A DNA stretch of 20,128 nt from a virus. Numbering within the stretch: the stretch's first letter is position 1; each line of letters begins with the position of its first letter. The notes beneath the pieces are model-generated. The model searched no databases. It was not told the DNA's origin and saw only the letters and a program-made list of their open reading frames with translations. The DNA is taken from IMG/VR virus record IMGVR_UViG_3300022925_002732, positions 1 to 20,128 of that record. The stretch is one strand, 5' to 3'. The position numbers and the translations under genes are program-made. Shown one piece after another: positions 3,201 to 20,128 of this stretch.

Positions 3201-6200
3201 TTGTCCAGGAATTTGAACTTGTCCAGGATTGCCCAAGAATGTTTCAACTTCTGTTGGAGAAAGTTGTGATAGATATGGATTGTTTTTGAAAATTCTGGTA
3301 GGAGCGTTAAATGGACCTTCTTTATGATTCGCCGTTGCAACTCTAAACCTAATTTCAGGTGATGAGATAACTGGATTTCCTAAACCAACCTCTTTCATTT
3401 TACCAATGACTGTTTCTCCCACTTGGAAGACACCACTTGTCATTGCAATTTCTAGTAGTTTTGGAGTGCAATACTTACTTACATCTCTACCATCAAAGAA
3501 TGGATATATTCTTGTAAGTGGTCTTGCTTTTGTTGCATTAAATTCAATATTTCTAGAACGCATAATGCTGATAACTTCTCTATTGACAACTCTGTCACCT
3601 TGAGAAGTTCTATCAAATCTTTCAGTGATAACTGTTTGCGTTCCAGATCTATTATCAGTTCCAGTTCTGAATGTATCAGTTGTAGTATCTTGGAATACCT
3701 CATTAGTACTAACTGATGTGTTAGTTCTATTTCTAGCGCGTCCACCAGGACCCTGAAGATGACGTGTTCTAGTTACAGTTCTTCTTCCACCGCCACCAGA
3801 ACGAGTGCGACTTCTTCTTTGTGTTGAAGATTGAGTTTCTGTTCCAGTCCAAGTGGTTTCCCATGCATTCCATTGAATTGGGAAGAATCCAGTTTGTGGA
3901 TCTGGTTGACCAAATCTTCTGGTAGCAGATGCCATCTCTGCAGCATAGTTACCCTCAACATCAATCACCTTCGCTTCAATTCTAGCAGTATCAACCCAAG
4001 TATCAGATGCAGGTGTCAGAGCAACAGTTGATTGCCAGAAACTAACCAAGAAAGGAGTTATACTTTCGGTTCTTGTTGCAAAAGTTTGTTTTAACCACTC
4101 AACCTCTGTATAATCAAGAGTAATAACTTCACCAGAACGTTTGATATTTTCACCATCTGGATCAGTGAAAGATACATCAGTCTGTGAGGTAACGCCTTCT
4201 ACAGGTTCAATTGTTAAATCAATTGAATTAGTATAATGTCTCGGACGCAGTTCTCTATTTTCAATATCAATAGAGTTTTTGACTGGTATGTCAGTTTCTT
4301 GGGGAAGAAGAGTAGTAAAGTCATCAACAAAGAAACCAGATTTAAATCTGTTGAGACCCTCTGAATCAGTAACAAATAAACTCTCTGCACCAACTTCTAA
4401 CAGAGACAAAGTTGTGTAATATTCAAGACTCTTGATTCTATCTTCAAGACGCTTGATATCAGACATCCTATATCTCTTATGATCTAGGAATGATATCTCA
4501 GAGAATGAAGGTTCGAGAAGATAAGGTTCTAATTTAACAGATGCAATCTCTAATGCATCATCAATAGGAACCGGTCTTTCATAAGTTTCTGATGGGGTTC
4601 CTTGTTGAACTTGCAGTCTTCCATCTTTAGTAATGAATATTCTGTCAACACGCCCCAGATAGAAAGAGTAGTCAACATTTATTGACTCATCCGATGCTAA
4701 AATATTTGCAGCAGAATTTCCATCACCATCATATGTTCTACCTAAAAATTCTAATGGAGATCTAGCATTTTCAGAATTAGTAAAGTCAGACACTCTAGGT
4801 CTGATATCAATCATGTCTGTATTTCTTTCTCCATTGATAGTTTGAATATCCTTTGCATAATCAAATGACTTATATGAGTTTGCAGTTGTAATGTCTCCAT
4901 CATCAGTTGCCTCATAATATGCATTAGAGAAATAGATTTTTAATTGTCTGGTGGGATCTTTGGTATTAGGATTTCTAGTGATATAACCATGACTGTAAAT
5001 AGATGGTCTTTGTCCGGTATTAAACTGGAACTTATTGGCAATGGGCTCACTTGGAGAATCTAAAGTTGTTAGTGTAGCAGTAATATTTGATTCTGAAAAT
5101 GTTATCGTCTCCCCTTCAACCAAGTTTATAGAGTTTCTTGGGATGTATGAAATTTGAGAATCAGACAATCTTTCTGCATAAATTCCTCTTGCTCCGGAAG
5201 ATTGTCCTACAAAGAATTCTCCAACGACTAAATCTGTTGTATTTCCAGCAACTCCACTAAAAGCAGAAAGAGTTGCTTTAGGTGCAGATGCAGCTGAAGT
5301 ATCTCTAGATTCGTAGATACCTAAAACCTCAATGACATCTGGTTTGTTCAGCGAAATCTTTTCATCTTCTACCCTTGTACCAAATGGGAAGTTTCCAAAA
5401 TCAAGACCATTGTTTAAAGTTGTGGTTCCAGTGCCAGCACCATCTAATTTTGACTTATCAACAACTAAAACATTAATTCTATTCTTTCTCTTAATTTTTT
5501 CTGTTACTTTATTTTTATTTAAAGTTGCATAAAGAGTTGCACCAGTATCATTAGCACCTATATTATTAATTTGAAGTTCTGTATTACCGTTCGTGAATAC
5601 AAACTTATCAGAGGTTAATTCTTCAGTCTCACCATTTGATCTGATTAAGGCATATCTCTCTTCATCGAATGCCAAGAAAGTTTCATTTGCTGCAGCAGTG
5701 ACAACAGATGATAATTTATTCCCAGTGATATTGACAGTAAAAGTTTTTCTAATCTTGAGATCTGCTTCGGTTAAATCAACGTCAGATATCAACTGTTTAG
5801 GCATTAAGGTATATAATGCATTTGCATCAAGTTCACCAGCACCAGGTTGTTTTACTCCAACTCTCCTCAAATCAGTGACTGATGTTGTTGCTTGTGGAAG
5901 AGCGCCTTCTACCACACCAGAGACTGTGGAGACTCCAGTTACTGTGATTGAATCTGTGCCAACTGTAAGGACTCTTACGGTAATCGGGTCTGCGCCAACT
6001 GGATTTGAATATTGTAAAATATCATTATGCTTAACTTGAGTTAAAAGATTAGATCCAGTTGGGGCAATGACTGTGCTGGTTGCACTAGACTCTGCAGAGA
6101 ATGTTGCAATACCAATATTTACTAAACTATCTAAAACAGTGTCTGCAGCAAATGTTACAGCAGTGCCAGTTACTCCACCTGAATATACTGACTGAATATC

Positions 6201-7847
6201 AGCAATTCCATGCGAAGTTACTGCTGTAGCAACTCTACTATTTTCTACACCATCAAAGATAAATGGTTCATTTAATACAAAATCACCACTTTTCTCATAT
6301 ACAGTCAGAGCAGTTCCTGCAGATACATTGTTTCTTAAAAATGCAGTTGCTCCGCTATACTTACCCTTGATGTGAGTGGGTACTGTTAATGTGATTGCCT
6401 CATTAAGAGTGATATGAGAGAATGTTTGAATATCATATAGTTGAAGATCCCACTGATTAGTATTTGCATTGGTAGCACTATATGTTCCACTTTCTAATGC
6501 ATAGTCATATACTCTTGCTAAACCAATCTCTTTTCCTTGCTCTACCTCTTTAGATGAACCGGTTCCAAGTCTTCTATCTCTCAAACTTACAAAGTAAGTG
6601 TTTCCAATACCTGTTGTTGGAGCACCAAAAGTATTGTTTACTTTAAAGGTAGAACCAGTGTTGTATATAATTCCTTGATTTTCTAATTTCTTTGTAGTTC
6701 TTGGTTTTGGAACATCAAGATATGACGTGCTAATAGTTTCAACTTCATATCCTTTGACAAATGCTTTTCCAGGTCCAATTTCATATAAAGCAAGATCCTC
6801 TGATGCTAAAGATCCTTGTTGTGTAAATTTACCTTCTTCATAGACACCATTATTACGAACACCATCGTTCAAAGAATCTCTAACAGATACATCGAAAGCC
6901 TTTACAGCGTAATCACCAGACTCTGCATATGTTCTACGTGCTAATTCATCAGCAATAACGCTATATTGGGTATTCTTTACTTGAGACTCAAGATTACCCT
7001 CCCTGACAGTAGCAAGTTCTACAAAGTCAGAATCGTTGTAGTCATCAATTGACTTAAATGTAAGTGAACAGGATATTTTTAAACGGTCTGCTCCAGGTGA
7101 CGCAAAATTATTAAAACCTTTTGAATTGTCTGTAAGAGTTTCGTCGATGTCAGAGTTTATAACTTCTTCTAAAACCTTAAGACCAATCCTACCGGTAGGA
7201 TTATCTGTGTATTGTGATATGATTAATGTTTCATCGGCAACATTAACAAAATTACCTCTAACGAAATAGACACCGTTTGAAATAGAGAATGCCGCTCCAG
7301 TTGAATTGCAATTTGATGCAATTGTAGAACCCCAAGACTCACCAATCGGTATGAATGGATTATTCAGTGGTCCAGAGGTGATATCAACGTCAGTTGCTAA
7401 AAGTTCACCATCTAAAAATTCTTTTAATTCTGAATCCTGAACACCAGAAGATAAGAAGGAGAGATAGAGAGTTAAATTACCTCTTTCAGAATCTGCTGAC
7501 TTTACTATATCTTTTACAAACGCTGTTATACCAGAGGTTAAACCAATAATCTTTCTATCTTTCAGTTGATCAATATAGTATTCAACAGGAACTCCTAAAT
7601 GAGTATTGTTTAACTCAAGAGCATAATACGTTCTAGAATACGCAGTGTTTCCTGGGATGACTTTAGCACCTTCTTTAAAAAAGTGCTGACCAAACCTTTC
7701 AATTTGATTTTGAAGAATAGACTGTAAACCAGTTAGTTCTCTTGCTTGAACCGGATAACCTGGTTTAAACAGAACTCTATGGTAATTATCATTTGGATCA
7801 AAATCATCAAAATATGGAGATACATTGAGATTGGTTTGTTGAGCCAT
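258..7847 (-). CDS. Giant DUF4815-type tail/baseplate structural protein (2529 aa)
   Basis: The start ATG lies six bases after the gp8 stop; no SD is evident. The N-terminus (YFDDFDPNDNYHRVLFKPGY, then PVQARELTGLQSILQNQ) has the opening of the DUF4815 family found in T4-like marine phages, followed by beta-rich sequence with 'GLTSG' elements (about residues 1-420). Residues about 1337-1376 are an Arg/Gly/Thr-rich insert. Near 1430 is a strongly familiar tail motif, RNIEF followed by LTRIYPFFDGRDVSKYC, and near 1715 begins WDPLAQSFQV, with VFFQTKD and PVYLEPGGEYAITL after it. Residues about 1940-2025 contain GxGY repeats, and about 2150-2200 a 'KIGDEIIEY...TRGI' repeat. The last 80 residues (FPGY ... 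IKELRTIALA) match the conserved C-terminus I recall for this family. By position after gp8 it may do the job of T4 gp9/gp10/gp11, forming the outer baseplate and attaching fibres; that role is inference. No catalytic domain, signal peptide or membrane helix is visible. Confidence 0.9.
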   Translation of the reverse strand: MAQQTNLNVSPYFDDFDPNDNYHRVLFKPGYPVQARELTGLQSILQNQIERFGQHFFKEGAKVIPGNTAYSRTYYALELNNTHLGVPVEYYIDQLKDRKIIGLTSGITAFVKDIVKSADSERGNLTLYLSFLSSGVQDSELKEFLDGELLATDVDITSGPLNNPFIPIGESWGSTIASNCNSTGAAFSISNGVYFVRGNFVNVADETLIISQYTDNPTGRIGLKVLEEVINSDIDETLTDNSKGFNNFASPGADRLKISCSLTFKSIDDYNDSDFVELATVREGNLESQVKNTQYSVIADELARRTYAESGDYAVKAFDVSVRDSLNDGVRNNGVYEEGKFTQQGSLASEDLALYEIGPGKAFVKGYEVETISTSYLDVPKPRTTKKLENQGIIYNTGSTFKVNNTFGAPTTGIGNTYFVSLRDRRLGTGSSKEVEQGKEIGLARVYDYALESGTYSATNANTNQWDLQLYDIQTFSHITLNEAITLTVPTHIKGKYSGATAFLRNNVSAGTALTVYEKSGDFVLNEPFIFDGVENSRVATAVTSHGIADIQSVYSGGVTGTAVTFAADTVLDSLVNIGIATFSAESSATSTVIAPTGSNLLTQVKHNDILQYSNPVGADPITVRVLTVGTDSITVTGVSTVSGVVEGALPQATTSVTDLRRVGVKQPGAGELDANALYTLMPKQLISDVDLTEADLKIRKTFTVNITGNKLSSVVTAAANETFLAFDEERYALIRSNGETEELTSDKFVFTNGNTELQINNIGANDTGATLYATLNKNKVTEKIKRKNRINVLVVDKSKLDGAGTGTTTLNNGLDFGNFPFGTRVEDEKISLNKPDVIEVLGIYESRDTSAASAPKATLSAFSGVAGNTTDLVVGEFFVGQSSGARGIYAERLSDSQISYIPRNSINLVEGETITFSESNITATLTTLDSPSEPIANKFQFNTGQRPSIYSHGYITRNPNTKDPTRQLKIYFSNAYYEATDDGDITTANSYKSFDYAKDIQTINGERNTDMIDIRPRVSDFTNSENARSPLEFLGRTYDGDGNSAANILASDESINVDYSFYLGRVDRIFITKDGRLQVQQGTPSETYERPVPIDDALEIASVKLEPYLLEPSFSEISFLDHKRYRMSDIKRLEDRIKSLEYYTTLSLLEVGAESLFVTDSEGLNRFKSGFFVDDFTTLLPQETDIPVKNSIDIENRELRPRHYTNSIDLTIEPVEGVTSQTDVSFTDPDGENIKRSGEVITLDYTEVEWLKQTFATRTESITPFLVSFWQSTVALTPASDTWVDTARIEAKVIDVEGNYAAEMASATRRFGQPDPQTGFFPIQWNAWETTWTGTETQSSTQRRSRTRSGGGGRRTVTRTRHLQGPGGRARNRTNTSVSTNEVFQDTTTDTFRTGTDNRSGTQTVITERFDRTSQGDRVVNREVISIMRSRNIEFNATKARPLTRIYPFFDGRDVSKYCTPKLLEIAMTSGVFQVGETVIGKMKEVGLGNPVISSPEIRFRVATANHKEGPFNAPTRIFKNNPYLSQLSPTEVETFLGNPGQVQIPGQGNVLPELYSSTSTVLNVDTASLALQAQGDYYGYVAKDMILVGQTSGAQATVSNLRLVTDLGSNLIGSFYIPNPNIAGNPRFETGTKTFSLIDNPDNNKEAASSVGENNYTASGTLETVQEQIISVRNAEIQQKQQTQSRGAREFLGRNVTTELVDSTTFVDQTVIWWDPLAQSFQVLDSTGVFITSCDVFFQTKDDMDIPMTFQIRTMQNGVPTQKILPFSEIVKDPDQINVSSDGTVPTTFNFKAPVYLEPGGEYAITLASWSTKYRVFISRVGESDILTDEFISNQPYLGSLFKSQNASTWEPSQWEDLKFTIRRAEFVQNGSLEVYSPILGEGNGQIPTLQPNAVNVNSRKIRVGLGSTLAESLVIGNRFSQLTTQATGDFVGAAGSAIGDLTIVNAGIGYTPASGGLTYTGVALTSITGTGQNITADISITDGVAIGATVNTQGTGYLVGDVLEILNIGGALPSGKNARFSVTSIASTTELVFDNVQGDFATGVGKTLMYTNSVGVLTTLNDAQGGNVVPTTIRTVGEHDGVHLVVNHKNHGMYHENNRVVLSAVESDVAATKLTSPYASDATTDIQVDSVANLGTFENVGVSATTPGYLKIGDEIIEYTSTAGSVIGGVTRGIDSTQVRNYVVGTPVYKYEMGGVSLRRINKTHLFSDVDLTNPISYDSYTIKVDMSANGLDRTDETNFPKLFFNETKESGGYKIRATQNMPFEAIVPSVQNVTVPGTSISARVRTTSGSNLGDGSGTSLPVPFNNVGVEDVTLNATNYFTSPRIIASRVNETNSSVLQQLPGDRSFNMSIALTTNDSRVSPVIDTQRVSAILISNRVDRPITDFVTDNRVNSITDDPNAFQYVSKENNLDSSATSIKILLSAHINQYSDIRAFYAIGDEEDFEPIFEAFPGYATPVLNDGTTDRLVPVSNASEGFVSNDLTFKEYVFTIDDLPSFKSYRIKLVGTSTNQAYAPRIKELRTIALA
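1770..2025 (-). repeat. GxGY beta-repeat module in the DUF4815 protein
   Basis: Two successive protein-level repeats read 'LTIVNAGIGYTP' and 'ATVNTQGTGYLVGDVLEI', about 40 residues apart. They have the same layout as modules in the giant upstream protein and in gp8: a strand ending in xVxxxGxGY, then a V/I-rich strand, then a G-x-G-A/N turn. The similarity is seen in the amino acid pattern; I did not see long identical DNA. Confidence 0.65.
3721..3838 (-). other. Arg/Gly-rich low-complexity insert within the DUF4815 protein
   Basis: The translated stretch, about residues 1337-1376, contains SRTRSGGGGRRTVTRTR and then GPGGRARNRTN, with eleven arginines in about 31 residues and no acidic residue. 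It joins a segment rich in Trp and aromatics (FFPIQWNAWETTW) to a Thr/Asn-rich stretch before the conserved YPFFDG region. It looks like a flexible, positively charged surface loop or linker. Base composition here is richer in G+C than the surrounding gene. Confidence 0.7.
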
Positions 7848-7853
7848 GATTGA

Positions 7854-9410
7854 TTAGAATTGCAATATAATTTTAATATCTTCCTTTTGATTTGAAGATC
7901 TTGTTATAGATGGGCGGTTGTCAGTGTAGATTATATTTCCGGAGAACTGCTGTACCTCTGGAGTGGATACGCCTGAAGCAAAGGTTTGTCCTAGGTTATA
8001 TGTCCTATTATTTATGACTGTTGCCAGACCTGAGAAGTTGGTATTAATTCCCAAGTTGATACTTCCGCCAGTGATTGTGAGACTACCTCCAGTTGATGGA
8101 GATGCGGTAAATCTGTTTAATTTAAATCCAAACTGCGGATCAGTTTGAGCAGTTCCAACAGTATTAAATCCGGCAAAAGTTCTTTCTTGCCAAAGTTTTA
8201 GAACTCCAGTTACTTTATCGTAATTTACAACTTTACCAATCGCTGTTACACCTGTTCCAATTGTTTGCTGAACAATAGTATCTTCGGTGAATGTCGCAGA
8301 GTCAAATCCAGTTCCTTCTAATTTAAGAGCGTAAACTCCACTTGCCTTATCCAAGGACAAAATTTGATTGCTACCAAATGCTAATGGATTTTCAACGATA
8401 CCGATTCTAGCAATTTCATTTCCTGTTATAAAATCAGGGTTTTCAGTATCATTTTCAATTCTTGAATATAATAAAACATTAGTTGCACCAAGTTCCCTAT
8501 AGATGTCTTTTCCATGACCCCCTTTGGGTGGAATAATGACATCCAAAGTAGGATAGGCAGCAGGCACAGGAACACCACCCGCAACTAAATCAACATTACC
8601 AAAGGAATAACCAGACCCTTGGTTTGAAACTGATACGCTTTCTATCTTTGAGTCATTGTTGACTACAACTGTGCATTCTGCACCAGTTCCATCTCCTTTA
8701 ATTGGAACTTTTGTGTAAGTGACATTTCCAGTGCCAATTCCAGTTCCTCTATTTTTTAAAACAACAACTTTAATTCCACCATCAACTGCATTATTTCTAA
8801 CTACAGAAATATTGGTATCTGTACTAGTTTCCCATTGTGATGGAACAGGCATATATTCTGTACTATCAAACTTTACAATGTCACCTGGTTTGATAGTGTA
8901 CAAATATTTCCAGATATAACCATCTCCACTTGTTCCAGCACTTCTTGGTTCTAAATCAGTGAACGTTGGTTCATCCAGTGATGGACGCCCATTTGGATTC
9001 TCTGGGTCTGTTCCATTTTGTAAGCAAATATAAACTCTATAATCACTATTGAGAACAAAATAGTTTGCGGAGTACAGAGTAGTTCCACTAGAATTTATAG
9101 GTGTGTTGTTTATATTATAGTCATGTCTGTAGTAGTCAAAGGTAGTTCCAGAGGTCCAAACACTTTTCTTCACCACCTGCTTTGCATCATCAGATGTAAT
9201 TTTCTTGAGTGCAATTATAGTATCCCATGTGGAATTTTCATTATCAAAATCATCAATTGGGGCGGGTGGGTCATTATCCCAATTGGCATCAATTATCGTT
9301 GGATTGGGAAGTCCAACAAAACTATAATAAGAGTTTGTAGTCGTGTTAAATCCGGCTACAAAATTCTTTGCATTCAATATTCTTATCTGATCAGTTATAA
9401 TGGCAGACAT
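7854..9410 (-). CDS. 8: Baseplate wedge subunit, T4 gp8 homologue (518 aa)
   Basis: T4 gp8 is a dimeric wedge protein of the baseplate, and several T4 gp8 landmarks are recognisable. YRVYICLQNG matches the 'VYRCLD' strand. GDGYIWKYLYTIKPGD (about residues 158-173) matches T4 'GDGYVWEYLFEI', followed by TEYMPVP for T4 'NEYIVVP'. The end, IIYTDNRPSITRSSNQKEDI, parallels T4 'MIYMENRPPI...QTEEINILF'. The N-terminus MSAIITDQIRILNAKNFV is typical of marine phage versions as I recall them. At 518 residues it is about 185 longer than T4 gp8 (334); part of the excess is a GxGY beta repeat at about residues 207-278 and a 'GKVVNYDKVTGVLKLWQER' segment near 385-405. A T4-type late promoter motif lies just upstream. 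It lies between the gene-7-position giant gene and the DUF4815 gene, with six bases to the latter, consistent with a wedge-assembly operon. Confidence 0.88.
   Translation of the reverse strand: MSAIITDQIRILNAKNFVAGFNTTTNSYYSFVGLPNPTIIDANWDNDPPAPIDDFDNENSTWDTIIALKKITSDDAKQVVKKSVWTSGTTFDYYRHDYNINNTPINSSGTTLYSANYFVLNSDYRVYICLQNGTDPENPNGRPSLDEPTFTDLEPRSAGTSGDGYIWKYLYTIKPGDIVKFDSTEYMPVPSQWETSTDTNISVVRNNAVDGGIKVVVLKNRGTGIGTGNVTYTKVPIKGDGTGAECTVVVNNDSKIESVSVSNQGSGYSFGNVDLVAGGVPVPAAYPTLDVIIPPKGGHGKDIYRELGATNVLLYSRIENDTENPDFITGNEIARIGIVENPLAFGSNQILSLDKASGVYALKLEGTGFDSATFTEDTIVQQTIGTGVTAIGKVVNYDKVTGVLKLWQERTFAGFNTVGTAQTDPQFGFKLNRFTASPSTGGSLTITGGSINLGINTNFSGLATVINNRTYNLGQTFASGVSTPEVQQFSGNIIYTDNRPSITRSSNQKEDIKIILQF
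8571..8782 (-). repeat. GxGY beta-repeat module inside gp8
   Basis: The gp8 translation here reads 'IKVVVLKNRGTGIGTGN', then 'GDGTGAECTVVVNNDSKI', then 'SVSVSNQGSGYSFGNVDL'. This is the strand / G-x-G-A turn / strand / GxGY layout found many times in the upstream giant protein. T4 gp8, as I recall its sequence, has no equivalent at this place, so this looks like an insertion into the gp8 fold. Confidence 0.65.
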
Positions 9411-9427: not shown

Positions 9428-9435
9428 TATTTATT
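9428..9435 (-). promoter_or_regulatory. Putative T4-type late promoter (AATAAATA) upstream of gene 8
   Basis: The minus strand reads AATAAATA, which fits the NATAAATA late-promoter core recognised by gp55-like sigma factors in cyanophages (T4 consensus TATAAATA). It overlaps the TAA stop of the giant gene. The last A is 17 bases before the gp8 ATG, so transcription would begin about ten bases before that ATG and leave a very short leader. No -35 element is needed for this promoter class. It is the only match seen in an intergenic position in this window, and the AT-rich background makes chance matches possible. Confidence 0.5.
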
Positions 9436-12400
9436 AGGTTACGAACCCAATTGACTTGAGTGATTGTTGTCTTGTGATGTATGGACCGGTTCTTATTCCA
9501 ACCACACCATTATTTGTAATTGCCCCATAAGTTGCAACTCCAACTCTTTCAGAGAACTCTATCTTACCCCAACTAAATCTTCCTGCAAAAACACTAGTGC
9601 CAACACCAACACCAGAGAAGTCTTCTACACTTACGGTAACCCTTCTAACTGCAGTTGCTCCATATCCAATCGCACTAGTTGTAATGGCAACATGATGTGC
9701 TACTCTGTAGATATTATCTATAAAGGTAGTACCAACCCCAATTACATTTCCACCTTCATCAAGGGCAGTTATTCCTGAACCAACATGATTGTGAGTTATA
9801 TTGGAGTCATAAACAATGAAGTAATCTCCAGTTTGGATTCCACTGATTGTTGTATTCTGTGTTACTTTTGTATTGTCTCTCAAAGGAGAATCTTTTTCAA
9901 TAATTAAATCAAGAGTAATACCAGTGGAAGCAACACCAACTGTTGTTGTTCCAAATCCAGTGATAACACCAAAATCTCCAGCAAAGGATACAATCGTATT
10001 GTCTTCCTCTGTCAGTGATTTTGGAGGAGAAATGAGGACGATAGGTGGATTTGCCTGGGTGTATCCAGTTCCACCAGAGGAAACTGTAATAGTGGTAACA
10101 ATACCAGCAGTTATAGATGCAGTTGCCACAGCTCTTTGAGTTGTCCCAAGTCCAACTGGATTTTGTACTGAAACATCTGGAGTTGTTGAATAACCAACTC
10201 CACCCGTAGACAATACTATGGAAGATACAGTTCCTGCCGAAGAAACTACTGCAGTTGCTGCTGCAGAAACTTTTTGTCCGTAGTTGACAATGGTAAGTTT
10301 CTTTTGGAAATCAGTAGAAACAGTGCTTTCATTATCTTGGTTGAATGATGGTCTAACATTATCAACATATATTTCAGTTGAACCAACACCAACAGATTTA
10401 ATGATGTATGCTGCTGGGAAAATGCTTGGTTCATATAAAGGACGTGCTTTACTAACTCGTCTTCCATCAAGATAAATGTCATCTCTTTGTCTACACCATT
10501 TTACTGGTCTTTCTAAAGTCTCATCTTCACTAAGTCCTGCACCATTATATGCATCCGTATTAACAACGTTAGTTGTAATAATATCTTGAACCGTTCTTGG
10601 GTCTTCATCAAGTTTATCAACACTACTATCGATATCTAAACTATCACCAACCTTGACAGTTTCTGTAATATCAACATCTTGAGTGTCAACGGCAGAACTA
10701 CCTCTGTAGAATATTACTTTTACAGAATCACCTTCATCTGGTGGTTCTGTAAATAAAATTTGAGAACCACCGGAGAATTCATATCCAACTCCAGGAACTT
10801 GTAAAACATCATTGAGGAAAATGAAAATATTATCTTGAATATTGATGTTTGAACCTTGTCTGGCAACAAAGGATATAAAGTTTCCACCTTTTTTGAGCGG
10901 GAATCTTTGTCTAGATCCAGTAAAGAGATTAGAGAAATCATCAAGGACATCCCAATCTCCAACAGACCATCCAGTAAACTGGTCACTATCAATTTCATCA
11001 ATTATAAGACGGAATGAATCAAAAGAAGCATGTGGGTCTGTTGGTATGCCAACAGTTCCACCAACACCAACAGTCAGCACTTGAGAGTTACCATAACCAA
11101 ATCCAGTGTTTGATACTTCAAAGTCAATTACACTTGATCCATTACCAACAACAATATCAACTTTTGCGCCTGTTCCAAGTCCAGTAGAACCTGCAGAGTA
11201 AATCAATGGAACATTGACATATGATAAAGGAGGATCAATAAAGACATCAGGTGGATTAGTTTGAGTAAATCCAGCTCCAGGATTTGTAAGTGCAATACTT
11301 ACAACATGTCCTCCAATAACTGAAGCAGTTCCGATGAATGTTATCTGTGGAGTTCCTGTTGAGGATTCTGCAACACCAACATTGACAGTTGTTTGTATAC
11401 CAGATCTGTAACCAGAACCACTGTTTCCAATGGCAACAGAACTAACTTGTCCAGAACCGTTAATTACAACTGTTGCACCTGCTGCTACTAATGGTTGGAA
11501 ACCAAATCCAGCACTTGAAGCAACAGAAACAATTACACCGCCTCTTGGGACATTTGCAGTATTTACATCATGTGCAGCAGAACTTGCAGTTCCTGTGAAA
11601 CTAATTGTAGTAACACCAACTTCTTCCGTCACAGTGTAATTTGAGTTTGCTCCAAGACCTTGATAAATTCCATTGATTGTTACAATAGTTGAGGTTGAAA
11701 CTCCAGATACATTTTCATCATTTTGAGTCAGTGTGAAGTCCTTTGTTGACCCATTAAACTGATTGGTGATATCATCATACAAGAAGTTTCTAGAATACGT
11801 TTCTTCAGTTGAACCAATAGCAGCATTTCTAATAAATGATCTTCCAGAGAAAGTTGAAGAGGATGTAATACCAATCCAATCTCTAAATGATGGTGGATCA
11901 GAAATAGAACCAATAGGTCTATTGCCATATGGTGCTTCAACAAAGTGAACAGTGTTATTAACAATGTTATAGTGACCTCTCAACTTGGTAACAGTTGATC
12001 CAATACCATGAGAATTCAATTTAGTTCCCACCCATGACCTTTCAACTTTAATACCATTTGTTTTACCAATACCAATAGAAACAATTTTCAATATTTCTCC
12101 AGTGTCAGCAGCACCAACTCTTACATAGTCTCCAGCAAAGATTGAAGTAATACCTGCAAATTCTATTACTTCATCTGCAGCTGCTGCTTCTGCAGAGAGT
12201 TCTGTTATAATCCTTGTCTCCGAAATTGGAGACTGTAACATATTATCAATGGTCAACATCACTTTCTGATTTGCATCTTTAGCAGTCAGTGTGTGGAAAT
12301 TTTGTATTCCGTTTCCAGTGAATGCGATAGAAACTGGATTTTTTGCTAAAGCATGTTCAGCAGTTGCTGCAATCTTAACAAAGTTTTCATTAACTTTAAT

Positions 12401-15400
12401 ACAGAAAACATCCGCTGGTAAAAGAGTGGTTGCGCCAACACCTGGGAATGCATCTGTTGATGCAATTGAAATAGCATCTGTCTTAATTCCTAAAGGAGAA
12501 TTATAAGTCAATGCTTGTCCACTAACAAAGAAGTGGTTTGGCATCTTAATTGTGTTCTCTGAAATATTAACAATTGCTGAATCTGAAGAATCAAAACTCC
12601 TTTGGAAAATATTGTCATTTTTATGAGTTAATTCAAAATCTTTCTTGATAGTATTTTTGGTGCCAGTGTAAGTAGAGAAATGAGACTCTACAAATGCAGA
12701 TTGCATATCTTTCAAGTCTGGTGTCGTAACAATTTCATTTACAGACAGTGTATTAAGATATGTCTTAACGTGACATGCTATACCTGCATTTGGTGTGAAG
12801 ACTATTTGAGTTGTATTAGTTCCTAGTCTGTTAGCACCCAGTGTTCCTAATCCAGATACTCCTGTATTACCCTCGGAATCAATAATTCCAAATTCAGTCA
12901 AGAATACATCACTATCATTATCAACAACAACAATTTCTGATATTTGAGAAATATTGTTTGTTGTATCAGTTACTACAACGATTCCATAACAACCATCAAT
13001 ACCAACATTGACATTATTTGCATAATGACCAACTCCAACTGCAGATGGAGACCCTGAAGCTGCTATATCTTGACCTTCTGCAATCAATTGAGCATGAGTA
13101 TAATCTTGAGTTCCAACACCAACATATTTTTCAGAGGAGATACCAATTGACAGTGCATTCAAATATGTTGTGGTAATACCTGCATCATATGGAGTAAACT
13201 TAACAACAATATCAGAGCCAGACATGGTTACACCATAAGTTCCAAGTCCAGTTGTACCTGATGAAGTAGCATCTAATGAGTGTGTGGTTAACTGACCATA
13301 TTCAATAAATTCTACATTAGTTCCATTGCATACAATGCTTACCTCTTCAAATTCAGCTTCATTGTTTGAGTTTTCGATACTGAAAAGTATCTTTGCTGCT
13401 CTAGTTCCAGAGGTAGTAGTTCCAATTCCAGCAAGAGTAAAGACTGTTGTTACTGCAGCGCCAGCAATGATATGGTTTGTGCTTGCAAGACTTACTAAAG
13501 CACCTGGGAACCCTGAAGTGGTTGATAGACCAATTTGAGTTGATCCAATACCAATTGTTTCAGAGTGTAAATCCAGTCTCTCCAAGTTGTAACTAAAGAT
13601 TGACAAGTTATAGTTGTTTACCTCAAACTTATCTGGGTAGAAATTCAAAACTCCGTCAAGTCCATCAACGACATAATCAAAAGTGCCCAACTCAAGTTCG
13701 GTATCAGTATCACCATATTGACTAATCATTGCTTGTCCATTATGGACATTGTTTATTACAGAGACCAGAGAAACTTGTCTTTCTCCAGTAAACAATTTGT
13801 CTTTTACAAGAATTACAAATTTTGCTCCAATAGCATCTTCTAACTTATGTCTATTGACCTCTTGGAATGGAGTTCCTCTTGCATTGCTATTAAATTGTCC
13901 ACTTATATCATCAATAAGGAGAACTCTATTGCTGATAGATTCTGTAAAGTCACTAATGATTCTAGTTTTAAAAGTAATCTCATCAGAATACTTGTTGTTT
14001 GCGCCACCAATATAGTTTTCAGTTACAAGGTCAAAATTAGCAACACACTCTAAATCATATACATTTACTAAATCAATTTGAATTGATGTAGCATCAGTTG
14101 GTACAACTTCTAAAGCATCTTCATCCTCTAGAGGTAATAATGACTCAACTTGGAGGTCACTAAATTTCTTAAATCCTGCACTGTGTAGCAAAGAACTTAC
14201 TGAATCATTCCATTTTTGGAATGGAACTTTTGATTTAATTGAATATGAGAAGTTTTGATAATAATCATTATCAGGCAATCTTTGTTCTATCTTACTCAAG
14301 AATCCATTTTCAGTTCTCCATCCATTATCAACTTTAGAGAAATAATCAATATCATATTCAGACTTAAATTCATATTTGGCATTAACCGTTGCTTTAGAAC
14401 CAGTTACATCCTCTTCTATGATATCTCCAACCGAGAAATCATCTGAACTTTCAAGTGTAAGTAATTGATTTGTCTCATCCCAATCAGCAACGGTTCCTTC
14501 TAAATCTCCGGAAGTAACAACACTCCCTTTTTGGAAGGAATTTGATTTTATATCAAAGTTAAATACTGGAAATAATCTTTCTGGAACTAAAGTTGCTGAT
14601 GAGTTTGTGGTATCAAAAATACCAGCTACTTCTAAACCACTAAATTCATTGAAGGAATATGTAACAATACCAATACCACCACCCAGATTTGCAGTTACTC
14701 CAGTTACATTGAACAGTTTATAATCATAATCTTCAGAGTTAAATCCTTTTGTAATAGCATTAACATCAGCCTCTGGATCAACTGTAACTACGCTATTTTC
14801 AACTAAAATTTTATCCCCAACTTCAATTGGGAAATTTTCACTATAAGTTTTCTTCATAGTGACAGTGACTGTTTTGTCAGCGTCATCATATACCAAATTA
14901 GAAACTCTAATACCGTTTGAATTTTTTATTGGTCTAATAGTAGGATTATTTCCACTTAAAGAAAGTGTATTCTTAAGAATAGGAACAACATTACTACCAG
15001 TAACATATCTCAAATCGATGTCGTCGATTTGTTTTTGAGTTGTTCCATCAAGAACAATTAATGTTGGTGGAGTAGTATATCCACGTCCAAACGAAGTTAT
15101 TCCCACTCTGGAGAATCCAAAGAAAGTATTGAGTTCTAATACTTGAGGAAGATTTGCCTCTGGAGACAAAGTAAGGTCTGAAAGATAATTAAATCCAATA
15201 TTTTCTAGTTTAGTTTTTACAACCTTTCCTATTGTCGTACTGGAGGGTTTTAAAATAGCTCCAGTTCCAGTAGAAGTTGTTATCGTGCTAATACCTGGAA
15301 GTCTAGAATATCCCTTTCTTCTATCCTTAAGGTCTAATGCAGAAATTGGTCCTGATGCCGTAAGAGAATCAGTTGTGTAGGATAGAACAGATGTGGTTCC

Positions 15401-18400
15401 CGAATATGAGGTTGCTTCTGGTTTTTCAGATACGCTATATTCAAACGTGGTTCCTGTTACCCCACTAATAGTATACTTACCATCAAATACACTATCCTTT
15501 ATATTAATTTGATTATGTAAATCTACCTCGTCGCTAGAAACAATTTCTAGATAAGAAGACTTATTACCAATAACACGTATTGGTTCTAATCTATAATAAA
15601 GAGTTTTTGGAGTATTTTTATTAACAGTAAGAGTTGCAGTAGCTCCGCTTTGACCAGGAGTTCCACTCGTTGTAAAAACAAATCCATCAACATCAGTTTC
15701 ATATTCTTGAGTAAAAGCAGAATCTGTATATAACTTAAATAAGAACCCTGGGAAGGGGGTTGTGTTTATGAGGTAAGATAATGTTTCACTGCTCAAGTCA
15801 AAAACAACTGTAGAATCTCTATACACCTCTATTGGTGGATTTACAGGGAATAGGGTTCCAGGTTGTCTAGAAGTAATATTTACAAATTCTGGACGTGATT
15901 GTTTCGTTTGATATTTTGTATCACAAAGTTTGACATTATCTTTATCAACCACATATGCATAGTATTCTTTATCATTAGTCAATCCAGCAGACGTTCCGCT
16001 GTGAATAATTTTTTGACCGGTAATTAATCTATGGTTAGATACAGTAATAGTGTTTGTTGTTAATGCAACTCCAGCGGCAACAAAATCTAAACCACCAATA
16101 ACCATTTTCCTGTTGCTTTCATTATATCGAACTGTTCTTGTTGTTGAAATTGATGGATTTACATCAACATAAACAGTGTCACCTCTAACTAATCCGTGAG
16201 TAGATGCAGTGGAGACTGTAACTAAATCTCTATCAACACTTCCTTTTATAACATTCTTGTAATCAGTTACGAAACTATGTCTTGTTCCAGTTCCAATACC
16301 AGTGAAATACAATAAACCATGATCAGCATTAGTAGATGCCGTGCCGACATAAACTCCAGTGCTTCCCAATCCAACCGGAACTGATGATACACCGATAAAG
16401 TCAGGGGACAAATTAGCAACATAAAGTCTAGAGTTTTCACCCAGTAACATTGAGGACGTATCACTGATAGAGGCAATACCAATAGGATCTCCTCCATGAG
16501 TCTTATAAATGACCTCATCGCCAGTTGCTAACCCATGATTTGGAAGGAACACCTGTTGTGTAGGAATGAACAGATTGGTCTCTCCTACGCCCGGAGAGGC
16601 GAACGTAACTGTTTTTCCGAACCCTGGACCCGATTGGGTTCCAATTCCTAAACTTTCATTAGGATCGAAATAATATTCTCTATTTCTTCTACTAAAGAAT
16701 GATGCTTCGTTTTCAACAACAATATTAAATCTCTTTGGATTATCTTTTATTATGGTTGTAATTGTATGGGAAACACCAACTTTTCCATTCTGACCTCTCA
16801 ACACCCTCAATCTGGAAGACTTTCTATCAATATTCAGAACTCTTACTTGTTCTTCATTACTTCCAGTTCCTATTGATATGATATCATTCTCTTGCACATC
16901 AGCTACATCTAAACCTCTTCCATAAACACTAATATAAGTGATAATACCAACAGCAGATACTGAAGGAATAGTTTGACTTACCCTCAAAGCATAAGTGGAT
17001 ATTCCCGTGGCATATGTTCCTTCAATTAATGATGATGTTGTTGAAAGTCCTGATATACTTACAACATCACCATCTTTAAAGTTGTGAACAATACTAGAAA
17101 TACCGACAAATGATTTCTTTTGACCTGTTGGGAAAAACTCAATATTAGATATTGTGGTTTTTGCAAAACTTACATTACTTACTGATACGCCATCCAGTCT
17201 TGAAATTCTAGCAGCAGAGAAAAATCCTTTTTCTGATTCAAAAACGACTCTATCATTAATTTTATAGTTTGATCCACTAGTAACAATGCCAACATCAGTA
17301 ATATATCCTTTTTCAGTCGTGCTTATGACAGAATCTTGATCAATAAATTCATATGATTTTTGCAAATAGTCATATCCACTATTTTTCTTGGTTATGGAAT
17401 ATGGAGCAGTATTTCTTCTCCAATTAGTTGCATTTATGTCATAATTATCTTGATTTGAGTTTATATCATAATTAAATGCATTTGGTTTCGCCTTAAAGTA
17501 CTCTCCAATGACATATGGAAATGCGGGTCTCTTAAAGTTTTTGAATACTCCGTCTGCAGCAGCAGTTAAATCAAAAGTTGTAAAATACGCATAAGTTCCA
17601 TTTGGAAAATCTGGGGTTACGCAGAATCTGCCATTATTTCTATCTAAAACAGATTCATCTGTAGAATCTACCCATTTAAAGTCTTCAATAAAGAATTCCC
17701 TTGGAAAGACTGAAACAGGTGGTCTATTAGGTTGCAGTTCTACAACATAACCAGATTTCATTTGGGTTATATCACCACCAGTAGATCTTTCATATGCATA
17801 TGGACCATAAATTGGATATCCGTCATATGACCATCCAATAATAGAGGAGTGATCTGTGTTATCTATTTCTTGGTTATCTCTTATTGTTAAATCTTTTTTG
17901 CCGTAAAGTACAGATCCATTACTATCCTTTGCATATTGAATTTTTCTTAATTCTCTTGGAGAATATGCATAAGAGAACTGTAATCCATAATCACTGTTAT
18001 TTGATTCTGAAATGAAAATATCATCAGAGGTTAAACTTTCAAATCCTTTCTGAACAGTGTTGAGTTCCCAAGTTTGCAATTTGGTAGAAAATTGAGCTCC
18101 CTCACCAGCAGAAACAACTTGTATTGATGTAGTGGAAACTCCGTATCCAACACCAGATTTAGCAACTCTTACAGATACAATATTTCCATTGACAATTTCT
18201 GGAATTAGTAGAGCACCTTCCCCACTTCCAGTACCATCAGTTATAATCAAATGTGGTGAAGAGTTATATTCTTCTCCAGTTCTATTAACAATAACATCTC
18301 TTATTCTTCCAACCTGATCAATAATTGGTCTTAATTGTGCACCCACACCAGACTTTAATTTTATTTCTGGGTCTCTCTTAAAGTTAATGATATCAGATGC

Positions 18401-20128
18401 ACCATATCCGACACCTGTATTTGTTATATGGATAGAACTTATCTGTCCTCTAAACAGTGGTTGAACAGTTGCTTTAAATTCTGATCCTGCTGTAGAGGCA
18501 ATACCAACTTTTCCAGTAACTTCAACAGATATTGGTTGATAGTTAAAATTATGAATTCCAGAACCAATAGAGGTAAGTTCTACAAATTGATCTGTTTTGA
18601 GGAAGAAGTCTTTTGCTGTTGTACCTACTCCAACTTGACTTAATTTAAATTTATCAGCATCAATTGCAGTTATATAATAATCTGTTTGATTTGTAAGACC
18701 AGATATTACAGTTCCATCAGTAGTATATCTTACAATCTCACCAGTCTTATAATCATGATTCTTGATACTGATAAAATCAAGAGATGTGCTAACTCCTGCT
18801 GGTCCACAAGTTCTTTGCTTGTTCTCATATCCTACACCAGAGTTAATAACATTGATTGAACCAATGGTGAGTTTATTGTTTAGAGATTTAAGAGTATGAA
18901 CACCCTCTCCAGCAAGTCCAATAGTGACTGTATTGATACCAGCACTAGATCCTGCAATTGCACTATTTAAAGTATTATGTAATTTTACATCATACTCATT
19001 CAATACTTCAGTATAATAAGTGGCACCTGTCGTCAGTCCTGTGACTGCCTTTTTACCAAAGGTATTATAAGTAACCCTTTCACCGTTTCTAAACCTGTGG
19101 AAGGTCGTAAACCCAATTGTAGAGGTAGATGTAGTGATACCACCTATTCCAGTGCCGAGTGTAGAAATTCCTGTAGCATTGAAAGAGATTTCATTGGTTA
19201 CGGATATTAGGTTTGCTTCTGCTTTAGCTCCAACACCATTTCCACCAGTAATTTTTACTTGAGGAGTTTCGACATAATCAAATCCTGGGTCTAAAACTTC
19301 AATTGCAGATAATCCGCCATTTACTGCACATATACCTGTAGCACCAACTCCTGTGCTATCAGAAATATGTAAAAGAGGGGGATTTATAACATCATAATCA
19401 GAACCACCAGCAACTACCTCTAATTCACGTATTTCATTATAATGAACAAAATCAGAAGATTTGTAATTTAGTAATTCTACACCATTTACAAAAATACCAC
19501 TATATTTTAAATTATTTTGATATTCTTTTGAGTCTATTACCGGATTAGAAACTTCTCTGTATATTTTTTGTGGACTTATATTTTTATTTTTAAACTCTTC
19601 TCTCTCAATAGTGTTATCTCTTATAACAACATTATTCACTCCTCCAGCAGGAGTTACACTTTCAAATTTTCCGGCAAATAAATTAGACTTACTTTTTGCA
19701 AACTTAATATTTTTTTCATCAACTCTTTTTACAACATAAATCCCCTCTGGAAAAATAGCACTAACAATTTCTTCATTAAAGATTACAGAACCATCTGGTT
19801 GAGTAATTGAAGTGATATTTTTTTGTGGTGTATAATATATGAGGTCACCAGTATAGAAATTATGGTCCGTTGCTGTAGTAATAGGAATTAATTCTTGACC
19901 TAAATCAAAAGTTCCAGAAATAGTAAATTTTTGACGATTAGGTCCAACTTTGGTATCCAAATAGGAGGGTAAACTATTTGCTGCGATTAAAACTTTATCT
20001 TTATCTACATAAGTGTTTAATATGTTTGAATTAAACGATTCTAAACCAGCAAAAAGATCAGATTTAAACTTCGTTAATCTTTTTCCTACTTTGATGATTT
20101 TTGCAGGATCACCTACACCAGAACCTCT
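9434..20128 (-). CDS. Giant repeat-rich virion/baseplate protein in the T4 gene 7 position (5' end outside window)
   Basis: The frame is open from the right edge to a TAA at 9434, at least 3564 codons. A TTG at 19960 could be read as a start, but the 56 codons before it are open and protein-like (KVGKRLTKFKSDLFAG, then VLIAANSLPSYLDTKVG), so the real start is upstream of the window. Position directly before gene 8 corresponds to T4 gene 7 (wedge protein, about 1032 aa), but this protein is over three times longer and I see no clear gp7 similarity. Domains, by position: H-x-F-x-x-G-D repeats and GxGY beta repeats (19880-18090), a YHYH-like domain (about 17965-17505), more of both repeats (17310-15030), a conserved tail segment with LPDNDYYQNFSYSIKSKVP (about 14550-14150), a duplicated domain of about 86 residues (13401-12738), GxGY blocks (11460-11050 and 10234-10017), a conserved block with FLNDVLQVPG and VKVIFYRG (about 10920-10690), and WCRQRDDIYLDGRRVSKARP (about 10490-10430). 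Virion structural role is well supported by context and resemblance; the exact function is unknown. Confidence 0.85.
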   Translation of the reverse strand, partial: RGSGVGDPAKIIKVGKRLTKFKSDLFAGLESFNSNILNTYVDKDKVLIAANSLPSYLDTKVGPNRQKFTISGTFDLGQELIPITTATDHNFYTGDLIYYTPQKNITSITQPDGSVIFNEEIVSAIFPEGIYVVKRVDEKNIKFAKSKSNLFAGKFESVTPAGGVNNVVIRDNTIEREEFKNKNISPQKIYREVSNPVIDSKEYQNNLKYSGIFVNGVELLNYKSSDFVHYNEIRELEVVAGGSDYDVINPPLLHISDSTGVGATGICAVNGGLSAIEVLDPGFDYVETPQVKITGGNGVGAKAEANLISVTNEISFNATGISTLGTGIGGITTSTSTIGFTTFHRFRNGERVTYNTFGKKAVTGLTTGATYYTEVLNEYDVKLHNTLNSAIAGSSAGINTVTIGLAGEGVHTLKSLNNKLTIGSINVINSGVGYENKQRTCGPAGVSTSLDFISIKNHDYKTGEIVRYTTDGTVISGLTNQTDYYITAIDADKFKLSQVGVGTTAKDFFLKTDQFVELTSIGSGIHNFNYQPISVEVTGKVGIASTAGSEFKATVQPLFRGQISSIHITNTGVGYGASDIINFKRDPEIKLKSGVGAQLRPIIDQVGRIRDVIVNRTGEEYNSSPHLIITDGTGSGEGALLIPEIVNGNIVSVRVAKSGVGYGVSTTSIQVVSAGEGAQFSTKLQTWELNTVQKGFESLTSDDIFISESNNSDYGLQFSYAYSPRELRKIQYAKDSNGSVLYGKKDLTIRDNQEIDNTDHSSIIGWSYDGYPIYGPYAYERSTGGDITQMKSGYVVELQPNRPPVSVFPREFFIEDFKWVDSTDESVLDRNNGRFCVTPDFPNGTYAYFTTFDLTAAADGVFKNFKRPAFPYVIGEYFKAKPNAFNYDINSNQDNYDINATNWRRNTAPYSITKKNSGYDYLQKSYEFIDQDSVISTTEKGYITDVGIVTSGSNYKINDRVVFESEKGFFSAARISRLDGVSVSNVSFAKTTISNIEFFPTGQKKSFVGISSIVHNFKDGDVVSISGLSTTSSLIEGTYATGISTYALRVSQTIPSVSAVGIITYISVYGRGLDVADVQENDIISIGTGSNEEQVRVLNIDRKSSRLRVLRGQNGKVGVSHTITTIIKDNPKRFNIVVENEASFFSRRNREYYFDPNESLGIGTQSGPGFGKTVTFASPGVGETNLFIPTQQVFLPNHGLATGDEVIYKTHGGDPIGIASISDTSSMLLGENSRLYVANLSPDFIGVSSVPVGLGSTGVYVGTASTNADHGLLYFTGIGTGTRHSFVTDYKNVIKGSVDRDLVTVSTASTHGLVRGDTVYVDVNPSISTTRTVRYNESNRKMVIGGLDFVAAGVALTTNTITVSNHRLITGQKIIHSGTSAGLTNDKEYYAYVVDKDNVKLCDTKYQTKQSRPEFVNITSRQPGTLFPVNPPIEVYRDSTVVFDLSSETLSYLINTTPFPGFLFKLYTDSAFTQEYETDVDGFVFTTSGTPGQSGATATLTVNKNTPKTLYYRLEPIRVIGNKSSYLEIVSSDEVDLHNQINIKDSVFDGKYTISGVTGTTFEYSVSEKPEATSYSGTTSVLSYTTDSLTASGPISALDLKDRRKGYSRLPGISTITTSTGTGAILKPSSTTIGKVVKTKLENIGFNYLSDLTLSPEANLPQVLELNTFFGFSRVGITSFGRGYTTPPTLIVLDGTTQKQIDDIDLRYVTGSNVVPILKNTLSLSGNNPTIRPIKNSNGIRVSNLVYDDADKTVTVTMKKTYSENFPIEVGDKILVENSVVTVDPEADVNAITKGFNSEDYDYKLFNVTGVTANLGGGIGIVTYSFNEFSGLEVAGIFDTTNSSATLVPERLFPVFNFDIKSNSFQKGSVVTSGDLEGTVADWDETNQLLTLESSDDFSVGDIIEEDVTGSKATVNAKYEFKSEYDIDYFSKVDNGWRTENGFLSKIEQRLPDNDYYQNFSYSIKSKVPFQKWNDSVSSLLHSAGFKKFSDLQVESLLPLEDEDALEVVPTDATSIQIDLVNVYDLECVANFDLVTENYIGGANNKYSDEITFKTRIISDFTESISNRVLLIDDISGQFNSNARGTPFQEVNRHKLEDAIGAKFVILVKDKLFTGERQVSLVSVINNVHNGQAMISQYGDTDTELELGTFDYVVDGLDGVLNFYPDKFEVNNYNLSIFSYNLERLDLHSETIGIGSTQIGLSTTSGFPGALVSLASTNHIIAGAAVTTVFTLAGIGTTTSGTRAAKILFSIENSNNEAEFEEVSIVCNGTNVEFIEYGQLTTHSLDATSSGTTGLGTYGVTMSGSDIVVKFTPYDAGITTTYLNALSIGISSEKYVGVGTQDYTHAQLIAEGQDIAASGSPSAVGVGHYANNVNVGIDGCYGIVVVTDTTNNISQISEIVVVDNDSDVFLTEFGIIDSEGNTGVSGLGTLGANRLGTNTTQIVFTPNAGIACHVKTYLNTLSVNEIVTTPDLKDMQSAFVESHFSTYTGTKNTIKKDFELTHKNDNIFQRSFDSSDSAIVNISENTIKMPNHFFVSGQALTYNSPLGIKTDAISIASTDAFPGVGATTLLPADVFCIKVNENFVKIAATAEHALAKNPVSIAFTGNGIQNFHTLTAKDANQKVMLTIDNMLQSPISETRIITELSAEAAAADEVIEFAGITSIFAGDYVRVGAADTGEILKIVSIGIGKTNGIKVERSWVGTKLNSHGIGSTVTKLRGHYNIVNNTVHFVEAPYGNRPIGSISDPPSFRDWIGITSSSTFSGRSFIRNAAIGSTEETYSRNFLYDDITNQFNGSTKDFTLTQNDENVSGVSTSTIVTINGIYQGLGANSNYTVTEEVGVTTISFTGTASSAAHDVNTANVPRGGVIVSVASSAGFGFQPLVAAGATVVINGSGQVSSVAIGNSGSGYRSGIQTTVNVGVAESSTGTPQITFIGTASVIGGHVVSIALTNPGAGFTQTNPPDVFIDPPLSYVNVPLIYSAGSTGLGTGAKVDIVVGNGSSVIDFEVSNTGFGYGNSQVLTVGVGGTVGIPTDPHASFDSFRLIIDEIDSDQFTGWSVGDWDVLDDFSNLFTGSRQRFPLKKGGNFISFVARQGSNINIQDNIFIFLNDVLQVPGVGYEFSGGSQILFTEPPDEGDSVKVIFYRGSSAVDTQDVDITETVKVGDSLDIDSSVDKLDEDPRTVQDIITTNVVNTDAYNGAGLSEDETLERPVKWCRQRDDIYLDGRRVSKARPLYEPSIFPAAYIIKSVGVGSTEIYVDNVRPSFNQDNESTVSTDFQKKLTIVNYGQKVSAAATAVVSSAGTVSSIVLSTGGVGYSTTPDVSVQNPVGLGTTQRAVATASITAGIVTTITVSSGGTGYTQANPPIVLISPPKSLTEEDNTIVSFAGDFGVITGFGTTTVGVASTGITLDLIIEKDSPLRDNTKVTQNTTISGIQTGDYFIVYDSNITHNHVGSGITALDEGGNVIGVGTTFIDNIYRVAHHVAITTSAIGYGATAVRRVTVSVEDFSGVGVGTSVFAGRFSWGKIEFSERVGVATYGAITNNGVVGIRTGPYITRQQSLKSIGFVT
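10017..10234 (-). repeat. GxGY beta-repeat block, last pair in the giant protein
   Basis: Two well-preserved units are 'IVLSTGGVGYSTTPDVSV' and 'ITVSSGGTGYTQANPPIVLI', each followed by a Pro/Gly-rich turn. They are about 37 residues apart. The TQ-x-NPP ending is shared with the AGF unit of the 11050-11460 block. Confidence 0.7.
11050..11460 (-). repeat. GxGY beta-repeat block near the C-terminal third
   Basis: Units read 'VAIGNSGSGYRSGIQTTV', 'IALTNPGAGFTQTNPPDVFI' and 'FEVSNTGFGYGNSQVLTV', separated by small Gly/Ser/Thr-rich stretches with a GTGAKVDI turn. The AGF copy shows that Phe can replace Tyr. Confidence 0.7.
12738..12995 (-). repeat. Duplicated domain of the giant protein, copy B
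   Basis: About 86 residues show the same order as copy A: SEIVVVDN, 'FLTEFGII', 'GVSGLGTLGANRL', QIVFTPNAGI, and the end KTYLNTLSV. Identity to copy A is concentrated in the GLGT-x-G turn, the FTP-x-AGI strand and the TYLN-LS end; the rest has diverged. Confidence 0.65.
13138..13401 (-). repeat. Duplicated domain of the giant protein, copy A
   Basis: This segment of about 88 residues ends 'GTTGLGTYGVTMSGSDIVVKF' then TPYDAGITTTYLNALSIGI. The order of motifs (VSIV, an 'FIEYGQL' strand, the GLGTYG turn, a VVKFTP strand and the TYLNALSI end) recurs in copy B, about 48 residues further along the protein. Confidence 0.65.
15027..15330 (-). repeat. GxGY beta-repeat block, degenerate units
   Basis: The translation shows RRKGYSRLPGISTI with a GTGAIL turn, a weaker unit 'TKLENIGFNYLSDLTL', then 'GITSFGRGYTTPPTLIVLDG'. 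The same V/I-x-x-x-G-x-x-Y-x-x-P pattern recurs at about 35-50 residue spacing, with more divergence than in the other blocks. Confidence 0.55.
17505..17965 (-). other. YHYH-like domain embedded in the giant virion protein
   Basis: The translation contains DHSSIIGWSYDGYPIYGPYAY (split by the family into an HSxIIGxxxDGxPIYGP core), followed by LDRNNGRFCVTPDFPNGTY and then FPYVIG. Order and spacing match what I recall of the YHYH domain family: the DG-x-PIYGP motif, the NGRF-x-x-TP element and the fPYxxG end. The naming motif YHYH is replaced here by YAYF (about 17583-17594), so both family histidines are absent at that point. In free-living bacteria the domain occurs in exported proteins, and its activity is not established. 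Here it is one module of a tail protein. Confidence 0.7.
18088..18450 (-). repeat. GxGY beta-repeat block, three consecutive units
   Basis: Three units follow one another: 'IHITNTGVGYGASDII' with SGVGAQL, 'VIVNRTGEEYNSSPHLII' with GSGEGALL, and 'VRVAKSGVGYGVSTTSIQV' with GEGAQF. The unit length is about 40 residues. The middle copy has lost the GxGY glycine pair (GEEY). Confidence 0.7.
19204..19427 (-). repeat. GxGY-type beta-repeat block (first in the giant protein)
   Basis: Two units are visible: 'LEVVAGGSDYDVINPPLLHI' with a GVGATG turn, and 'AIEVLDPGFDYVETPQVKI' with a GVGAKAEA turn. Each is about 35 residues. The unit is V-x-x-x-G-x-x-Y-x-x-P-x-V-x-I followed by G-x-G-A. Confidence 0.7.

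Follow-up and report, generated by a model that had tools for sequence, protein, structure and literature searches.

A YHYH-family domain lacking its signature histidines in the gp7-position baseplate protein of a cyanophage-type virus

The YHYH family (Pfam PF14240) is named for an H..YHYH histidine triad. In cellular proteins, such as those of Deinococcus, Rhodobacterales, Bradyrhizobium and Persicobacter plasmids, this triad opens a series of motifs in the order ...[NG]xH...GxYHYH...DG[FY]x[IV]...LDxxxG...YxYxxT..P. The leading histidine (H0) and the YHYH make up the signature site, here termed site 1, whereas the YxYx that follows LDxxxG is termed site 2; in full-length members of the family the YHYH is found about 25-50 residues ahead of DGxPIY. 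In phages, a tail-associated Zn-dependent hydrolase was predicted in a 2021 paper from a conserved-histidine triad and an aspartate, with AOO14285.1 as the sole protein named (PMC7824862). The domain has also been listed among the carbohydrate-binding, host-recognition domains of pelagimyophage structural proteins (PMC7029224). We found no experimental study of the YHYH domain in the open-licence literature, and this includes metal binding by any YHYH protein.

The S-RIM14-type cyanophages encode three members of the family close together, with site 2 reading YAYF in all three. AOO14285.1 (3788-22384 of locus L315) is the gp7-position protein of S-RIM14 Sn_11_0110; the triad is absent from this protein, which has no YHYH within its 6,198 aa and reads EYAHLSNPQRLR at site 1. 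AOO14286.1, a standalone protein, has GGH..YHYH; joined to it is an alpha/beta hydrolase with similarity to PHA depolymerases (NF050058 E=4e-7, below the cut-off). The third, AOO14288.1, is a protein of 1,184 aa with a degenerate site 1 and a cupredoxin-like insert. Judged by these residues, the zinc-hydrolase prediction fits AOO14286.1 instead of its neighbor AOO14285.1. This amounts to a correction of the literature, as the only phage YHYH example named for the zinc-hydrolase idea belongs to the gp7 copies, from which the zinc ligands postulated are missing.

The carrier protein and its YHYH domain

The window analyzed here, i.e. the whole 20,128-base stretch of a virus record, contains three minus-strand frames: a giant gp7-position baseplate wedge protein (9434..20128; 3564 aa visible, with the 5' end outside the window), a gp8-like baseplate wedge subunit (7854..9410; PF09215 E=2.5e-11; phrog_438) and a DUF4815 protein (258..7847; PF16075 E=2e-59; phrog_358). 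A PHROG profile search matched phrog_2885 (baseplate wedge subunit) to the giant frame over most of its length (E=0, 2785 bits). The complete protein, from a cyanophage-type T4-like phage, exceeds 3,564 aa, and, among named phages, Synechococcus phage SynMITS9220M01 has its nearest relative, a baseplate wedge initiator (64.8% over the YHYH domain). Since names differ among records (gp7, baseplate wedge initiator, structural protein and, once, VrlC), we use the working name gp7-position protein for those that match phrog_2885 and occur in the order gp25-gp6-gp7...gp8-DUF4815. In the window this assignment comes from phrog_2885 and the downstream gp8 and DUF4815 genes, gp6 being outside the window. 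In S-RIM14, the counterpart is located after gp25 and gp6, and the label VrlC belongs to the DUF4815 protein, not to the gp7-position protein. The DUF4815 domain and the gene order gp8-DUF4815 are common to the two; in the window gp8 comes directly after the gp7-position gene and, therefore, the middle genes of S-RIM14 are absent from that place. The gp7-position giants AOO14285.1 and QJT70096.1 (SynMITS9220M01) share with the window copy the kind of protein, the domain and the missing triad. The window copy differs from them in sequence detail only, and is thus a further member of the same group.

In a Pfam search PF14240 matched residues 660-856 of the giant protein with E = 3e-23 (83.2 bits, cut-off 25), the alignment beginning at profile position 21. 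Addition of the C-terminal FPYVIG from an alignment of gp7 copies extends the domain to residues 660-875 (17504..18151, minus strand). Within it DGxP[IV]Y, LDxxNGR...GxYxY and PY follow each other in the order that the family requires: DGYPIYGP, the most conserved motif of the family, at 17801..17824; the second site LDRNNGRFCVTPDFPNGTYAYFTT, of the GR..YAYF form and with NGRFCVTP inside, at 17576..17647; and FPYVIG, which closes the domain, at 17504..17521 (all on the minus strand). Homologs of the domain were found in 463 phage records. With sequence, motif order and a score far above the cut-off all alike, descent of the segment from the YHYH family is not in doubt at the level of sequence comparison, but the name-giving triad is missing. 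The original prediction had recognized the elements DG-x-PIYGP, NGRF-x-x-TP and FPYVIG in family order, and these are borne out on the minus strand with a shift of at most one base. Of the interval that it assigned to the domain (17505-17965), the start can be retained; the end falls inside the domain and cuts off the N-terminal part with most of the true signature site.

Upstream of DGxPIY in the window copy there is no H..GxYHYH. When the profiles of gp7 copies and of phage standalone copies are aligned with each other, the histidine-free QFSYAYSPRELR (17945..17980, minus strand) falls at the equivalent of the signature site. Neither YHYH nor HYH occurs in the entire 3564-aa frame, and the domain has no conserved histidine pair elsewhere. 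Residues 640-900 hold a single histidine, H760 (17849..17851, minus strand, within DHSSIIGW), which is invariant in gp7 copies and occupies a position with no conserved histidine in cellular copies. Of the histidine triad and aspartate considered in PMC7824862, the window copy has the aspartate and none of the histidines. A histidine pair elsewhere in the segment, or its placement outside the family, had been named as what would overturn the original prediction, and neither was found.

The second YxYx site

The YAYF of the window was originally taken to stand where YHYH would be expected. The motif is present, one base away from the position first given (17582..17593 on the minus strand and not 17583-17594), but it aligns with site 2, the true signature site being upstream of DGxPIYGP at 17945-17980. 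To avoid motif bias, whole genomes from three groups were sampled for cellular copies by means of the Pfam profile, and all copies were aligned to a profile of cellular copies; one scan that used YHYH itself as the pattern was left out of the site-1 frequencies. In the 42 alignable copies found in this manner, H0 is present in 42/42 and both histidines of the YHYH site are kept in 42/42 (YHYH 40, YHFH 1, IHYH 1). Site 2 of the same set is variable, with YHYH in 11, YAYF in 6, YHYY in 5 and other forms in the rest; YGYY is also a cellular form. Further, the alphaproteobacterial copies L292-L295, L298 and L299 combine YHYH at site 1 with YAYFLT at site 2, and the cellular profile consensus at site 2 is GtYaYfvT, with which the window agrees. 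Because site 2 varies in cells, YAYF occurs in triad-intact copies and the consensus has this form, YAYF is, as far as sequences can tell, an ordinary state of site 2.

The notion that YAYF is a degenerate signature YHYH, fixed in phages and matched by YHYH at that place in cells, is thus highly improbable. It would be suggested by an alignment restricted to the 16 of 140 scored cellular copies that do show GH..YHYH at the second site; however, the histidines are missing there in most cellular copies, and YAYF is also seen in cellular and phage copies with an intact first site. The contrast originally put forward for checking, YAYF fixed in phages against YHYH in cells, accordingly fails, YAYF being among the cellular variants. 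When the histidine after LDxxNG and the last histidine of YxYx were scored together in cellular copies (n=140), both were present in 23, neither in 111, the last alone in 6 and the first alone in none. Among viral copies, which were gathered by sequence patterns, site 2 is devoid of its three histidines in 180 of 181, the remaining copy having a single one (YAYH). In the viral large ORFs YAYF is found in 88/92 scorable copies, and the pattern used for gp7 copies left these letters unfixed; GTYAYF was part of the pattern for standalone copies, which inflates the frequency of YAYF in that set. Judged from its residues, site 2 resembles a weakened copy of site 1, i.e. a pseudo-repeat inside the domain in which a second triad is optional, and this probably explains why YHYH had been expected there. 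YAYF does not mark a loss, because it is part of this second pseudo-repeat site, G[HRM]..YxYx, which is histidine-less in most cellular copies and in all but one viral copy. Hence, the earlier conclusion of a scaffold kept and histidines lost survives in its outcome, the motifs being retained and three conserved histidines gone, but not in its evidence, which was the normal form of site 2.

In certain short-form cellular YHYH proteins (P0006, P0008 and L019) the first and second sites both read GH..YHYH, a pattern resembling an internal duplication that might provide two metal sites. Within the Okeania phylum, only 5/292 genomes had any YHYH match; one cellular protein from this phylum, of 261 aa (L268, in the 1.7 Mb genome G253), has an intact site 1.

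Site 1 of the gp7-position copies and the probable loss of the triad

The profile of cellular copies does not align at site 1 in 84/93 viral large ORFs, and covers the window copy from model position 81 only (positions 81-172), i.e. in its C-terminal half. This could be read as an origin of the gp7 copy from a C-terminal half-domain that never had the triad, with the intact phage copies acquired separately from cells. We consider this quite unlikely, as the profile of phage standalone copies extends through site 1, where GqYHYHd is paired with LQysHlYaPRxLR of the gp7 copies, albeit with low confidence at that end, and the Pfam match sets in well ahead of the C-terminal half. Likewise, in a tree built from 98 columns by a quick method, a branch with 93% support sets all phage copies apart, and the gp7 copies group together (82% support) beside the standalone copies, so that intact and gp7 copies form neighboring groups. 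The tree does not fix a root, so that loss of the triad in gp7 is inferred from its conservation in cells.

At site 1 the gp7 copies have Y[ST]H[LI]YAPRxLR or a variant of it, and remoter gp7 copies vary, e.g. EYAHLSTPKKLR. In an alignment of 50 gp7 copies there are 41 invariant columns, among them the Y, P, R, L and R of Y-x-P-R-x-L-R. The aligned sequences thus show the gp7-position copies to be without the H..YHYH triad as a class, with Y-x-PR-x-LR in its place. A scan of two large viral ORFs with an intact YHYH, L114 and L117, as potential counter-examples among gp7 proteins revealed that both match phrog_2576, i.e. they have the standalone domain fused into other large proteins.

Of 81 viral copies in which these positions are aligned, 57 have the complete site-1 triad, and both H0 and the last histidine are missing from 24; 9/24 of the latter retain the first histidine of YHYH. 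Loss of H0 or of the last histidine alone was seen in 0/81. This coupling is not an effect of selection, since the patterns that drew the viral copies left site 1 unspecified. It is strong by count and weaker by independent events: the tree requires at least eight changes of the triad and offers three independent comparisons on well-supported branches. Coupled loss is what would be expected if the two histidines share a metal. The aspartate of DGxP is kept in 93/93 viral large-ORF copies, and for this reason is more likely to have a structural role than to act as a triad-specific metal ligand. We infer from these patterns that the triad may be metal-binding and the gp7 copies, therefore, metal-free.

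The reading that we favor, and consider probable, is that the gp7-position protein captured a YHYH domain which lost its triad and was kept as a structural or docking module of the wedge. Under this scenario, the capture would have taken place in an ancestor of these cyanophage-type phages. The triad, whose absence in gp7 is observed and whose loss is suggested by its near-universal presence in cells, would then have disappeared, probably as there was no further need to bind metal. The domain would have been retained in folded form, serving the baseplate wedge as a structural or docking module, and the invariant Y-x-PR-x-LR segment that replaced the triad may make contacts inside the wedge. 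Of the uses originally suggested for the domain, a structural one is plausible, given that the protein carrying it belongs to the core of the baseplate wedge. Receptor contact is possible, with nothing to favor it over an internal structural role.

The gp7 domain could also have a different active site. It might still bind a ligand, such as a glycan, or act as an enzyme through D769, the R834 of NGR and H760, given that gp7 copies show little or no variation in D, NGR, HS and TPxxPxGxYAYF and that YHYH was grouped with carbohydrate-binding domains in pelagimyophages (PMC7029224). We regard this as unlikely: conservation of most of these residues extends to the intact copies and may have purely structural reasons, and the single H760 cannot stand in for a triad. 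Nor does either structural model match a solved structure. The model of the standalone domain is of good confidence (pLDDT 84.7, pTM 0.85); its matches among predicted structures of viruses carry the names YHYH or baseplate wedge initiator (Bellamy, E = 1.3e-4). With a pLDDT of 65.5, the AlphaFold model of the gp7 domain has low confidence and is too poor for comparing site geometry, and the fold of its site-1 region is not established on this account. Comparison of the standalone and gp7 models against the PDB by fold gave no significant match, and sequence searches retrieved no solved relatives; the YHYH fold may so far be unsolved.

Phage paralogs and the cupredoxin-like insert

The original prediction also opposed phage copies that had lost the histidines to cellular copies that kept them. 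This split is contradicted by the sequences, in which intact copies are encoded by the same phages as the histidine-less gp7 copy. The standalone proteins AOO14286.1 and AOO13203.1 (phrog_2576) share the domain and the site-2 YAYF with the window copy, and their genes adjoin gp7 in those phages; unlike the window copy, they keep GGH..YHYH. AOO13203.1 (2516-4237 of L015), which adjoins the gp7-position gene, is a triad-intact standalone protein whose C-terminal part is an alpha/beta hydrolase similar to short-chain PHA depolymerases (E=4e-7, below the cut-off).

Another set of paralogs, typified by AOO14288.1 and WJZ48554.1 (Actinomycetia phage DSL-LC01), combines, within the YHYH domain, a degenerate site 1 with YAYF at site 2. 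Unlike the window copy, these have a copper-site-like C..H..M insert ahead of the LD-NGR part. Such cupredoxin-like inserts (YFCYxHxxM, CQFHSLM) between the DGxPIY and LD-NGR parts of phage YHYH proteins were seen in L315 (25414-28968, AOO14288.1), the second ORFs of L103, L104, L105, L107, L108 and L109, and L009 (1822-3192), for which the Pfam cupredoxin scores are under the cut-off. The first YHYH site is degenerate in all seven of the cupredoxin-insert proteins found by motif. A bolder proposal, which we hold to be doubtful, is that YHYH is a real metal centre switched off as a unit by phages, repeatedly, with one such event at the base of the gp7 class; the loss in the third paralog would go with the cupredoxin-like insertion, metal chemistry thus moving between folds within one baseplate gene cluster.

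The phage YHYH domains can thus be sorted into testable classes, namely intact standalone copies, triad-less gp7 copies and triad-less copies with a cupredoxin insert, from which metal binders can be predicted. As the carriers are baseplate proteins of marine cyanophages, these classes bear on cyanophage assembly and attachment. Further copies that keep the triad occur in a cyanophage protein annotated as 'peptidase S8' (L016, 2-5755) and in a viral structural protein of more than 4,000 aa (L117, 1-12837).
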